A stretch of 35,077 nt of DNA from Candidatus Scybalousia scybalohippi (lineage in GTDB: Bacteria > Bacteroidota > Bacteroidia > Bacteroidales > P3), in NCBI GenBank assembly GCA_018065645.1, contig JAGHSX010000187.1, positions 1 through 35,077 on the forward strand. Reading direction: 5' to 3'. The notes under the pieces are model-generated. The model made no database searches, was not told the DNA's origin, and was given only the letters and a program-made list of their open reading frames with translations. Position numbers and translations under genes: made by a program. This document shows positions 6,756 to 23,789 of the stretch, piece after piece. The stretch's first letter is position 1. Every line of letters starts with the position of its first letter.

Positions 6756-7094
6756 ATGACATTATTAAATACAAAAGATGCGTGTGGATATTTAAAAATT
6801 GGTAGATACTTGTTTGAATCAGCAGTTAATTCAGGCAATATCCCTTATATTATGCCATCCAAACGCAAGATGTTTAATAGTGAGGATTTGGATAAATGGC
6901 TAAAAAGCACACAGACCCATATAGGTTATTTAAAAGAGGAAATATCTACCACGCATACATTTCATTCGCAAGACAAGACGGCTCACAAGTGCAGTTTAGA
7001 TGCTCTACTGGTACAACGGATAGAGCAGAGGCAGTCAGAAGAACAACAGAAAAAGTCCTTGAACTTCAAAAAACACCTGAAAATACAAAATTAA
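6756..7094 (+). CDS. excisionase-like MerR-type HTH protein
   Basis: MTLLNTKDACGYLKIGRYLFESAVNSGNIPYIMPSKRKMFNSEDLDKWLK: HTH_17/Xis-like; directly upstream of and overlapping the integrase gene. Confidence 0.6.
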   Translation: MTLLNTKDACGYLKIGRYLFESAVNSGNIPYIMPSKRKMFNSEDLDKWLKSTQTHIGYLKEEISTTHTFHSQDKTAHKCSLDALLVQRIEQRQSEEQQKKSLNFKKHLKIQN

Positions 7095-7912
7095 CTATTG
7101 ATGAGGCTTTTGGTCTGTTCTATGAAAGACATTCACAATTTTTATCACGACCAAACGAACAATTAAACGGATTAAAAAACTTAAAAGATTTATTAAATAA
7201 AAAATATTTAGATGAAATTAATGCTAATACATTAGCTGAATTTGTAGCAACAAGAAAAAAATCAGTAAAAAATGGCACAATTAACAGAGAGTTGATGCTT
7301 ATTTCATCAATTATGACTAAATGTGATGAATGGGGTTTTAAAATACCTAATGTTAAAATTTCAAAGTATAAACTTCGTGAAACAGCAGAAAATATAAAAT
7401 ATTTTGACAGTATGGAAACTGTGCAAAAAATTATTGATAATGCATCCCCTCATCTGAAACCTATTATCTACACTGCATTATATACAGGTTTAAGACGTGG
7501 TAATTTACTCGCTTTGAAATGGGAAAATATAGATTTCAAAAATAATGTGATTAATGTAAAAGTTAAAGATAAAACAACAGATGGTGGCAAAAACTTTGTT
7601 ATCCCAATGATAGATAAATTAAAAGAAATATTAGAGCAACAACCTAAAGTTTGTGAATATGTATTTACTTTTGATGGTAAACAAATAAAAGATATTAGTC
7701 GTTCGTGGCACACAGCTTTAAGAAATGCAAATATACCTTATATGAACTTTCACACCTTACGTCATACTTGTGCAACGTGGATGCTAAAAGAAACAGGCAA
7801 CTTAAAACTAACTCAACAAATTTTAGGACACGCAGATATTAAAACCACAACCAAATATGCACACGTTTTAGATGGAGAAAAAAGGTCTGCTCTTGAGAGT
7901 GTTTTTAAGTAA
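6896..7912 (+). CDS. int: tyrosine recombinase / phage integrase
   Basis: Catalytic residues R (TGLRRGN), K, HxxR (HTLRH), H (LGHAD), Y (KYAHV). Confidence 0.95.
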   Translation: MAKKHTDPYRLFKRGNIYHAYISFARQDGSQVQFRCSTGTTDRAEAVRRTTEKVLELQKTPENTKLTIDEAFGLFYERHSQFLSRPNEQLNGLKNLKDLLNKKYLDEINANTLAEFVATRKKSVKNGTINRELMLISSIMTKCDEWGFKIPNVKISKYKLRETAENIKYFDSMETVQKIIDNASPHLKPIIYTALYTGLRRGNLLALKWENIDFKNNVINVKVKDKTTDGGKNFVIPMIDKLKEILEQQPKVCEYVFTFDGKQIKDISRSWHTALRNANIPYMNFHTLRHTCATWMLKETGNLKLTQQILGHADIKTTTKYAHVLDGEKRSALESVFK

Positions 7913-8024
7913 AAAATGCGTGAAAGAATGCGTAGTTCTTTAAAAGTTGCACAATTTTTGCACAATACTTGTTTTTGTCTAAAATAAATAACATCAAAAC
8001 AATTACTTAACTATACAGCCTACT

Positions 8025-8072
8025 CTCTTCGTAATGCGTGGGTCGTGTGTTCAAGTCACATAACCGGCACCA
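8025..8072 (+). other. 3' half of tRNA-Thr(CGU), attP core; not a complete tRNA gene
   Basis: ctcttCGTaatgcgtgggtcgtgtgttcaagtcacataaccggcacca has anticodon loop, variable loop, T-arm (GTTCAAGTC) and CCA of tRNA-Thr(CGU); no 5' half present. Confidence 0.85.
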
Positions 8073-8076
8073 GTAT

Positions 8077-8103
8077 AAAGCCTTGTTTTTACAAGGCTTT
8101 TTT
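8077..8103 (+). terminator. intrinsic terminator following the tRNA fragment
   Basis: AAAGCCTTG-loop-CAAGGCTTT followed by T-run. Confidence 0.8.
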
Positions 8104-8130
8104 ATTGTTTAAAGCACTTTTTTAAAGTCT

Positions 8131-8170
8131 AAAAAATGTGAAAAAATGCTAAAAAGTGCTAAAAAATGCT
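8131..8170 (+). repeat. four tandem 10-bp repeats (aaaaaatgtg aaaaaatgct aaaaagtgct aaaaaatgct)
   Basis: Direct reading; two related copies on the other side of the core at 7911-7920 and 7923-7932. Confidence 0.9.
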
Positions 8171-8243
8171 ACATATTTATAATAAAGTTGCACAAAAGTT
8201 GCACAATGTGTACAACGTGTGTACAACGTATTTATACAAAAAA

Positions 8244-9726: not shown

Positions 9727-9886
9727 TGCTTTTCTCCAAGTTATCAGCTTTGTGTTTAAGGGTTGTTTTTTCGCTCTCTAGTAAGCAGTTTTTACTTTCA
9801 AGCATATTCGTTCGCATATAAAAAAAGCCTGTACTAATACAGGCTAAAACAAACAAACAAGCTAACCCCTTTATCATATAACCCAC
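9581..9886 (-). CDS. Rz-like i-spanin
   Basis: N-terminal TM then coiled coil; located after endolysin. Confidence 0.7.
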   Translation of the reverse strand: MGYMIKGLACLFVLACISTGFFYMRTNMLESKNCLLESEKTTLKHKADNLEKSIEEYNKKQMVAGGTITEIRERIKYIKTDCDCYNESIHPELLNILYKGK

Positions 9887-10341
9887 TCCCCTGTTCTAAT
9901 TAATCTAGCTATTCTGTTTGCTCTCTTTGGTGTCTGTTTCGCATAGTTGCTATCCAAACACTCAATAGATGCTTTTTTGAAGTCTTTTAATTTCAAATAC
10001 AAAAGCATCTTTCTAAATTTCTTTAGTCCGTTAATACCTAATTGAAAGCACATATCTAATAACGCATATTGTCTTTCTTCATCTAACGTAAATATCCAAT
10101 TAAACTCTTTGTTAAGTTGTGCCTTGCATTTATCAATGTCATTCCTTAACAGATATATTGCTCCGTTGTATGTTATACCACGTTCAGCATCAGGACAAAC
10201 TCTCTTTTCTTCTGCCGTCAAAGGGTTTGTTTCAAGGCATCTACCAACCCCTATGGTCTTTTTACCTGCTGGACATACATAAACACATAGCTTTAATCCC
10301 TCGTGGAATTTAAGCCTCTCCATCTCCCAATCTTCAGCCAT
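9874..10341 (-). CDS. endolysin, GH24 lysozyme-like (T4/P22-type muramidase)
   Basis: FHEGLKLCVYVCPAGKKTIGVGRCLE (E...C...T catalytic arrangement); start chosen at 10341 (MAEDWEMERLKFHEG). Confidence 0.88.
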   Translation of the reverse strand: MAEDWEMERLKFHEGLKLCVYVCPAGKKTIGVGRCLETNPLTAEEKRVCPDAERGITYNGAIYLLRNDIDKCKAQLNKEFNWIFTLDEERQYALLDMCFQLGINGLKKFRKMLLYLKLKDFKKASIECLDSNYAKQTPKRANRIARLIRTGEWVI

Positions 10342-10342
10342 A

Positions 10343-10633
10343 TTATTTCTCCAACCACTTTTCAAATGCACGCATAACAACGTTTGGTATAAAGCTAACA
10401 ATTTTAGCCATAGCATCATAAATCTTTGGCGATAACATACCGCATATATAACCAATACAAGTCGCTGTTTGGCTCTCTAACCCGTATGTTTCAGCAATAA
10501 TAGCAGAGCAATAACAAAAGCTAGCACCCAACAAAAACAACCCTACACTACGTCTATATGATTGAAATTTCTCGTTTATCACGTTCCAAACCCCAGCAAA
10601 TATACTTACAATATACAAAAATAAATGTTCCAT
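10343..10633 (-). CDS. putative holin
   Basis: Small protein with two to three hydrophobic segments directly upstream of the endolysin. Confidence 0.65.
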   Translation of the reverse strand: MEHLFLYIVSIFAGVWNVINEKFQSYRRSVGLFLLGASFCYCSAIIAETYGLESQTATCIGYICGMLSPKIYDAMAKIVSFIPNVVMRAFEKWLEK

Positions 10634-21549: not shown

Positions 21550-23101
21550 TTCCGATTTCATATCTAATACCTGTATCATACCACTCAATAATATTACCTT
21601 TGGTTTTAGTCTTAAATACCACACTAGCCTTAAACCCTGTTGAGTTGTTAGCTATCCATTGGTTTTGTATCCTAGAAGTTGATAATGTACTCCATTTGGT
21701 ATCGGTTAAATTTGTTGGATGCGACCATTTAGAAACATCCCATTTAGTACCATCAATAGTTTGTATGTTGGTATAATAGTTTCTGTTCTGGTCTTCAAAA
21801 TCCATATTTGTATAAATGGTCAAAGCAAAACTTGTAGATGACCTTGTACGAGGATTTAACAAAGGTATTGTTTTTAAACTATCAGTTCCAAGGTTAGAAT
21901 AAGCTTGTTCTATTTTACCCTCAATTTGTACCCCATTATCAGAATATGTATTAGTATCATATTGATATACATAGTCATCACTTGCAAAATACATATTATT
22001 ATCAAATAAGCACCATTGATAGGAACGGATACCTGTAAATCTGCACCACGCACCACTTGTTAAATTAATAACGTGTTGCTCAAATTGGTTATTTACAGGC
22101 ACGTTAAATATTGCATATCCACGTTTAGAGTAAATAATACCTTGCCAACCTTTTCTATCTTTATTGGCAGAAGTTCTATCTAATACCAAACCACGAATAG
22201 CATCACTAAATGCAACACTTGAACTATTAGCATTTTGTAAACTCAAAGCTTTTGAAAGTGGTATATATCCATCTTGTGATATAATAACTAAATCGCCTTG
22301 ATATTGCATAATACAATTATAACCTATTGGCTCACTTAATTTATAAGAACCCACAATCTCCCAATTATTAGCAGAATTAGGATTAATACCTTTATAAACC
22401 AAACATTCGCCTTTGCTAGTTAAGAATACTGTTAAGTCATCCATACCAGCACCACCATCAACAGACCAGTTAGCAACAGCAATTAATTCGCCACCCCATT
22501 TACTAATCTGTGCAAGGTCAAATTGGTATAATTTACCGGCAATATTGCCAGCCTCTGCTGAATACCAAGCTTTTAAACTATTCTTTTCTACAAACCACAA
22601 AAACTCGTGGCTAACTGCACCATTAATAATTTTACCAGCATTAAAATTTGGATTATCGCTTGTAAATCCCCAATTTTCCAAATGCTCAACACTATCATCA
22701 TCAACGTAAAATACTTTAGGTGTTTCCTCGCCATTTAAGAAAAACAACCTATCTTTATATTGTACAGTCTGACAATATGTATTGCTAAATGTAGCATTAT
22801 AAACACGAACATTAGCTTTAGATGTGATGTTGTATGCTTTATTATTAGCAAGTGCAATAAATTGATTTGCAAGTGGTTTAGTATAGCTAACTAAAGTATG
22901 TATTGGATGCCCAATTTTAACATAGCTTTCATAACCTGAACGCAACTCAATCTTGTTATCAAGTGGGATGTAGTTATCCATTGTAATTGCATACAAGCTA
23001 TCCATAGCCGACAAGCTATCACGTTTGTTTAATCCTTTAATTGGAGCAGGCAAGATAAAATCCCTTGATTTGTTGCCCCTATTCACATTCCTTAATAACA
23101 T
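21536..23101 (-). CDS. tail hub/stabilization protein (podovirus)
   Basis: Size, beta-rich composition and position after connector gene; IKGLNKRDSLSAMDSLYAITMDNYIPLDNKIELRSGY. Confidence 0.6.
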   Translation of the reverse strand: MLLRNVNRGNKSRDFILPAPIKGLNKRDSLSAMDSLYAITMDNYIPLDNKIELRSGYESYVKIGHPIHTLVSYTKPLANQFIALANNKAYNITSKANVRVYNATFSNTYCQTVQYKDRLFFLNGEETPKVFYVDDDSVEHLENWGFTSDNPNFNAGKIINGAVSHEFLWFVEKNSLKAWYSAEAGNIAGKLYQFDLAQISKWGGELIAVANWSVDGGAGMDDLTVFLTSKGECLVYKGINPNSANNWEIVGSYKLSEPIGYNCIMQYQGDLVIISQDGYIPLSKALSLQNANSSSVAFSDAIRGLVLDRTSANKDRKGWQGIIYSKRGYAIFNVPVNNQFEQHVINLTSGAWCRFTGIRSYQWCLFDNNMYFASDDYVYQYDTNTYSDNGVQIEGKIEQAYSNLGTDSLKTIPLLNPRTRSSTSFALTIYTNMDFEDQNRNYYTNIQTIDGTKWDVSKWSHPTNLTDTKWSTLSTSRIQNQWIANNSTGFKASVVFKTKTKGNIIEWYDTGIRYEIGNGIL

Positions 23102-23789
23102 TTATTGCTCCATACTCATCAATATCAAAAACTCTACCACCCAAATTAATATCTTGAGTAGCAAGGCTAGTTCCAAATTTCTTTTTTAACTCTTTTTGAT
23201 ATTCGTTAAATTCTTCTGTGTAATCTAACCCATTACGTTTAAGCCATCGCCAAGTAATACCTAATTTAACAACATAGTTATCAAATATTGGCTTATCTGT
23301 ATTTTTGGTAATGGTTGCTTTATCCTCGTATGTTTCAGCATCTGTACAAACTGCATTACTACGATACATAAAAACAATGTGTAAATTTGGCTCTGGAGCA
23401 TTAACAAATTTAATGCAGTTATTTTGTATCTTAAATTTAATTCTGCCATTATCAGCCTGAAAATATCTGTCTTTCATCCAATCTTCAGGGGTAATAGCAC
23501 CTATAACCTTGTCGCTTTCATCTTTGATGTAAATTGTGTTATTTAATATAGAATAAAAGTCGCTAACAATGTTATCAATAGGATAAACAGTCTTGTTTTT
23601 AACTGTATAAATTACAGCCTCTTTAGTTAAATCTTGCCAATCCCCATATCGCATTAAACTATCTAATTCAACTTTAGCAACAGATAAAAAAATGCTATCG
23701 TTTTGATTGCTTTTATTGAATAGATTAGTCGGTCTTTGTGTGGCACAAATATCTGCCACTTCCTGACATATCTCCAATATACTATTCAT
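23079..23789 (-). CDS. head-tail connector / tail tubular protein A-like
   Basis: Position plus LEICQEVADICATQRPTNLFN...WRWLKRNGLDY pattern. Confidence 0.6.
   Translation of the reverse strand: MNSILEICQEVADICATQRPTNLFNKSNQNDSIFLSVAKVELDSLMRYGDWQDLTKEAVIYTVKNKTVYPIDNIVSDFYSILNNTIYIKDESDKVIGAITPEDWMKDRYFQADNGRIKFKIQNNCIKFVNAPEPNLHIVFMYRSNAVCTDAETYEDKATITKNTDKPIFDNYVVKLGITWRWLKRNGLDYTEEFNEYQKELKKKFGTSLATQDINLGGRVFDIDEYGAINVIKECE

Follow-up and report, generated by a model that had tools for sequence, protein, structure and literature searches.

An intact lambda-type attP with putative integrase and excisionase sites in a predicted temperate phage of Alphaproteobacteria

Sequence comparison confirmed, with corrections to an earlier note on this DNA, that positions 7911-8230 of the window (the whole stretch of DNA analysed, 35,077 nucleotides) read as an intact lambda-type attP, apparently that of a temperate phage of gut-type Alphaproteobacteria (Table 1). 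That this stretch is an attP using integrase arm sites appears nearly certain; the best explanation of the whole, an attP with Int arm sites, an IHF-like bend and a ladder of Xis sites, we consider likely. What the sequence shows directly is the identity of the core, empty as well as occupied sites, an arm pair on either side, a conserved ladder and an IHF-like site. There is no new kind of system here; the site is, on good support, a well-resolved new example of a lambda-type attachment site.

Table 1. Elements of the attachment region and the two genes preceding it
Feature	Positions	Strand	Description
xis-like gene	6756-7094	+	112 aa, winged HTH; overlaps int start out of frame; Pfam HTH_17 just over cut-off
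int	6896-7912	+	tyrosine integrase, 338 aa, predicted N-terminal arm-binding domain; PHROG integrase, PF00589
Left arm pair	7947-7965	+	TTGCACAA at 7947-7954 and 7958-7965, 11 bp apart
IHF-like site	7997-8009	+	AAACAATTACTTA; 31 bp before core; one mismatch to WATCAANNNNTTR
Core	8028-8072	+	3′ half of tRNA-Thr(CGU), anticodon loop to CCA; 45/45 identical to intact G061 tRNA
Terminator hairpin, phage-borne	8077-8105	+	10-bp perfect inverted repeat and T run; would follow rebuilt tRNA
Ladder	8131-8172	+	four 10-bp units (consensus AAAATGCTAA), phased A-tracts; proposed Xis sites and bend
Right arm pair	8188-8206	+	TTGCACAA at 8188-8195 and 8199-8206, 11 bp apart
Outer right pair	8208-8229		GTGTACAACGT twice, exact tandem; variant arm sites, orientation ambiguous

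Target tRNA and probable host

The 41-base core pattern had one exact match among the genome contigs, in an alphaproteobacterial MAG (G061, contig CALXWE010000005.1). In this genome the tRNA-Thr(CGU) is intact, and an open frame comes immediately after it, without any phage DNA; it represents an empty attB, its 3′ half identical to the core. The earlier note had proposed looking in host genomes for an attB at intact tRNA-Thr(CGU), and this is the exact site that the search returned. Its placement of the attP in tRNA-Thr(CGU) was borne out by the same empty site, together with a syntenic prophage in the same tRNA of genome G076. Its inclusion of the terminator in the core had to be given up: only 8028-8072 are shared, and unrelated sequence follows CCA in the empty site. 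As the hairpin is missing there (a similar hairpin follows CCA in relatives), it is phage DNA and would come to lie behind the rebuilt tRNA. No lysogen of the window's own phage was found, junctions of attL/attR type being known from its relatives in G076 and G088; a search for the exact core in viral contigs found none.

Bin G000, which holds the window, has a different tRNA-Thr(CGU), and the core occurs nowhere else in the bin. Relatives of Int with 38-54% identity were seen among the relatives of G061, versus at most 36%, over partial lengths, among the relatives of G000. Because the G000 tRNA differs and the closest Int relatives lie among relatives of the G061 alphaproteobacterium, the window contig (G000:C158, 1-35077) is, on sequence grounds, probably misbinned. 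The bin itself was considered as host and judged unlikely, given its differing tRNA-Thr(CGU) and a core carried by the window alone.

Two tRNA-Thr 3′ halves about 255-275 bp apart were seen in G068:C1, G073:C7, G082:C8, G090:C7, G092:C19 and G108 (C10 and C2); these may be either duplicate tRNA genes or att remnants.

Integrated relatives

In contig C11 of G076 the intact tRNA-Thr(CGU) (23052-23127) leads into a right arm that carries a TTGCACAA pair, beyond which come about 34.9 kb, an int 54% identical to that of the window, the left TTGCACAA pair and the tRNA 3′ half. Terminase, portal, major head and tail proteins of this prophage are about 37-63% identical to the window's, and its gene order is that of the window if the latter is taken as circular and cut at attP (34,890 versus 35,077 bp); one homologue, that of window 9874-10455, is about 5 kb more distant from the core. 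Since the gene orders agree in this circular reading, we take the window to represent nearly a unit-length phage genome, circularly permuted and with an unoccupied attP; no overlap of the window ends was found. A second prophage, about 38 kb long, is present in G088; its two junctions both carry TTGCACAA pairs, with the same orientation towards the tRNA.

In G076 the int-side core copy does not match the tRNA, nor a third copy located 7.9 kb beyond it. As this third copy has the tRNA sequence, two elements probably stand in tandem at the tRNA. Differences between the G076 copies are lacking in the 5′ part of the core alone, which would suit a probable crossover at the anticodon loop. The second element in tandem at this tRNA (G076:C11 about 58018-65890; L047 from 13018, L055 to 990), about 7.9 kb long, is possibly a satellite; it carries genes for an AbiEii-type toxin with a DUF6088/AbiEi-like neighbour, a partial gene for a further integrase, and ankyrin-repeat genes.

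Integrase, candidate excisionase and their family

The catalytic domain of Int matches PF00589 with 102.9 bits; R200, H286, R289, H312 and Y321 are invariant in 22 sequences. Residues 9-58 are predicted to fold into a three-stranded sheet plus helix, a candidate arm-binding domain; the Int profile aligns to lambda Int from residue 6, and the predicted fold matches full-length lambda Int. The nearest predicted-fold neighbours of the xis-like product are RacA, the RdfS excisionase and BldC, every structural match being above E 0.001; the profile match to RdfS is weak (E 0.086). An ORF overlapping the int start is similarly placed in the related loci examined. The winged-HTH ORF lies near int, as an RDF (Xis) gene would, and from this we infer its function. 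Its frame runs about 200 bp into int out of frame (6896-7094), an overlap recurring in related loci, and this stretch may code in two frames.

A single-sequence int scan of the viral contigs gave no match; an alignment-based scan yielded 16 related contigs, and a core-pattern scan added L162. The resulting family, uncharacterised so far, comprises IMG/VR contigs L058-L073 and L162 and prophages in G076, G088, G149, G152 and G230. Its members share with the window an Int 36-64% identical over full length, a xis-like ORF overlapping int and, in most, the attP anatomy along the tRNA strand; they differ from it by a drifted arm motif (TTGTAACAA, TGTGTACAA), by tRNA targets (Phe-like, Lys, Ala) and by an int found on either side of the core. 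In L065, L068, L069, L073, G088 and G149 int is on the side opposite to the window's layout, and in these loci the arm pair, ladder side and terminator order are kept along the tRNA strand. A short motif like CGAGTCG/CGACTCG follows the ladder in the right arms of L058, L059, L061-L063, L065, L068 and G149, and is not present in the window.

Arm sites

Six TGYACAA sites in a single orientation (7948, 7959, 8189, 8200, 8209 and 8220) lie between int and the RNase H gene, spaced by 11 bp on the left and by 11, 9 and 11 bp on the right; the sites and spacings of the earlier note (two left, four right, mostly 11 bp apart) were all re-found. First-order Markov shuffling of the 331-bp intergenic stretch produced six TGYACAA in 1 of 100,000 trials and three 11-bp pairs in none of 100,000. 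The first four sites are copies of TTGCACAA and the last two form an exact tandem of GTGTACAACGT, which is near-palindromic and agrees with the arm motif a little better when read on the opposite strand (8 versus 7 matches of 10); GTGTACAA is the arm motif in relatives L064 and L067.

Found de novo, the window's left pair stands at -81 from the core (shuffle p 0.002), the same position as in relatives. A tandem pair with 11-bp spacing, searched de novo along the tRNA strand, is present 77-86 bp before the core in 14 of the 16 attP sites; the left pairs of L064 and L067 are 60 bp before the core and 12 bp apart. Only 7 of 16 left pairs are individually below p = 0.02 on shuffling, and the position common to attP sites is stronger evidence than single-pair p values. 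The arm motif drifts between phages. Left motifs nevertheless score 8.35 against their own right arms versus 4.46 on average against others' (0 of 10,000 permutations), or 9.0 versus 5.2 after dereplication (0 of 20,000), in trials that are not independent, the rows being related.

Arm-type direct repeats are thus present on both sides of the core, as in a lambda-type heterobivalent system, and the earlier suggestion that one repeat family represents integrase arm sites is strongly supported by the junction pairs of G076 and G088 and the positionally conserved left-arm pairs. What the phages have in common comes closer to 2+2, and the additional right pair of the window (GTGTACAACGT twice) is a variant. 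An inverted TTGTGCAA pair in G076, considered as two extra arm sites, was set aside, as it occupies the ladder position.

IHF-like site

A feature that the earlier note did not mention is the IHF-like site at -31. Of 16 att sites, 15 have such a match, allowing one mismatch, 29-44 bp ahead of the core; in seven of the 16, the window included, it stands at exactly -31, and in some its strand is reversed. For each att site the chance of a match within -45..-20 is about 0.06-0.16. IHF/HU homologues were found in three host-group genomes, with IHF beta above the curated cut-off in two and IHF alpha above it in none of the three. A host IHF may be the protein acting at this site.

The right-arm ladder

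The A-tracts of the ladder start exactly 10 bp apart (8131, 8141, 8151 and 8161), so that direct repeats one helical turn apart stand beside the core, with four 10-bp units at +61 from CCA. Four phased A5 tracts appeared in 15 of 100,000 shuffles; the array is the only one of its kind (4x phased A5) in the window and the strongest A-tract phasing peak in the 35 kb. A second ladder elsewhere in the window (near 1800) was rejected, its score being inside the shuffle range.

The earlier note described an A-repeat family with four 10-bp-phased copies on the right and two copies on the left (7911, 7923). The right copies stand, and the left ones are chance: their spacing is 12 bp, the first shares bases with the int stop codon, the second reads aaagaatgcgt, and the window has 115 such matches with up to 3 mismatches. 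With a matrix built from the window's own four units, which makes the window's own score circular, the left arm scores 7.5 versus 55.2 for the right arm. As the left copies are chance, the double 2:4 symmetry that had been claimed for both families fails; the number of right arm sites also varies from 2 to 4 in relatives. What is left of it is a common 2+2, a variant outer right pair in the window and one right-arm ladder.

Most relatives have high-scoring four-unit arrays, with the best match starting +51 to +64 from CCA. Scores are 50.1 in L162, 24-29 in L058-L063, 19-29 in L065, L068, L070 and L073, and only 8-9 in L064 and L067; in L069 and L071 the best matches are further out and overlap arm sites, and G076, G088, G149 and G230 show a weak ladder or none. 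Scores are below zero in each of the 34 control flanks, AT-rich ones among them, that lie behind the same tRNA core pattern. The ladder keeps to the CCA side of the core even with int on the opposite side. Plain A-tract chains alone are significant in only some relatives. Could the repeats have arisen by chance in intergenic DNA that is AT-rich, or be iterons with no part in integration? A-tracts are indeed common in the window, as it has 33% GC; still, the shuffles, the absence from controls, the positions fixed relative to the core in relatives with other tRNA targets and the same pairs at lysogen junctions make this exceedingly improbable.

One could also suppose that the ladder is an intrinsic bend only, its phased A-tracts curving the arm so that Int bridges arm and core without a bound protein. 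The A-tract phasing, unmatched in 35 kb, and the A-tracts being the best conserved part of the units would fit; the TGCT/TGYT between the A-tracts is conserved too, however, and some relatives (L064) retain 10-bp units despite short A-tracts. We regard a bend alone as unlikely. Still less likely are weak integrase arm sites, related to TTGCACAA, that would load extra Int on the right arm. Int could bind the ladder, since units in L058-L063 and L162 (GTTGTTAAAA, ATGCTAAAAA) resemble the arm motifs (GTTGTAACAA, GTTGCTAAAT); but the ladder spacing is 10 bp, not 11, and the ladder consensus stays similar across phages while the arm motif drifts.

We favour, with reasonable though not high confidence, a track of winged-HTH Xis sites, a reading drawn from sequence; the ladder is probably intrinsically bent as well. 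The earlier suggestion of Xis/IHF-like sites or bends was reasonable, Xis sites being preferred over a bend alone. Across relatives, the ladder sequence shows no clear tracking of the Xis sequence.

Comparison with known systems

The lambda Int/Xis/IHF attP (structures 5j0n, 1z1b, 1z1g), with IHF and Xis sites between core and arm sites (PMC4880445), is among the closest references. The window would share with it a two-headed integrase with arm sites on both flanks, an IHF-like site between the core and one arm pair, a Xis-type ladder between the core and the other arm sites, and xis just upstream of int. It differs in its tRNA target, in arm pairs 11 bp apart, where lambda has five arm sites, in four ladder units with strong A-tracts, where lambda has X1, X1.5 and X2, and in a Xis that is by fold of the HTH_17/RdfS kind; the two Int proteins are about 17% identical in structural alignment.

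Published RDFs act cooperatively, binding to direct repeats with a spacing of one helical turn and bending the DNA (PMC7498355; compare RdfS, PMC11963761), and KplE1 has five TorI sites (PMC2951348). Apl of phage 186 (PMC7498355), RdfS of ICEMlSym-R7A (PMC11963761) and TorI of KplE1 (PMC2951348) all have RDF sites near the core, as the window would, and the Apl sites, too, are direct repeats with a spacing of about one helical turn. Among excisionases, RdfS comes nearest in fold to the predicted Xis of the window. Binding is proven for those arrays and only inferred for the ladder; an A-tract on every unit is a feature of the window's ladder, none being described in the parts of those papers drawn on here. 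Nothing specific was found in the literature on phased A-tracts with attP.

Proposed mechanism and significance

The attP would belong to a temperate tailed phage of about 35 kb. Its two-headed lambda-type Int would hold the TTGCACAA arm sites of both flanks by the N-terminal domain, and the tRNA-Thr(CGU) core by the core-binding and catalytic domains, an IHF-like protein bending the left arm in the interval from arm pair to core. The strands would be exchanged, most probably in the anticodon loop, so as to insert the phage and leave a rebuilt tRNA whose 3′ sequence and terminator come from the phage. Excision would call on the winged-HTH Xis, whose gene lies directly upstream of int; it would occupy the four right-arm units head to tail and bend the arm, a bend that the phased A-tracts may favour too. 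The right arm would then consist of a Xis ladder plus Int pair(s), and the left arm of an Int pair plus the IHF-like bend. The assignment of proteins to repeats is putative throughout, as are the exact crossover and the control of direction.

One could speculate further that the right arm is a hard-wired curved ladder doubling as an excisionase track, with pre-bending in place of a host bending protein there, and that arm motifs and tRNA targets drift while ladder geometry stays fixed; we give this joint reading a rather low chance.

For a little-studied, mostly uncultured alphaproteobacterial lineage there is now an att system known from an empty as well as from occupied sites, along with about 20 related int loci, and a probably misbinned phage contig is linked to the group that is its likely host. 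It becomes possible to follow in sequence how arm motifs, excisionase ladders and tRNA targets vary with one another.
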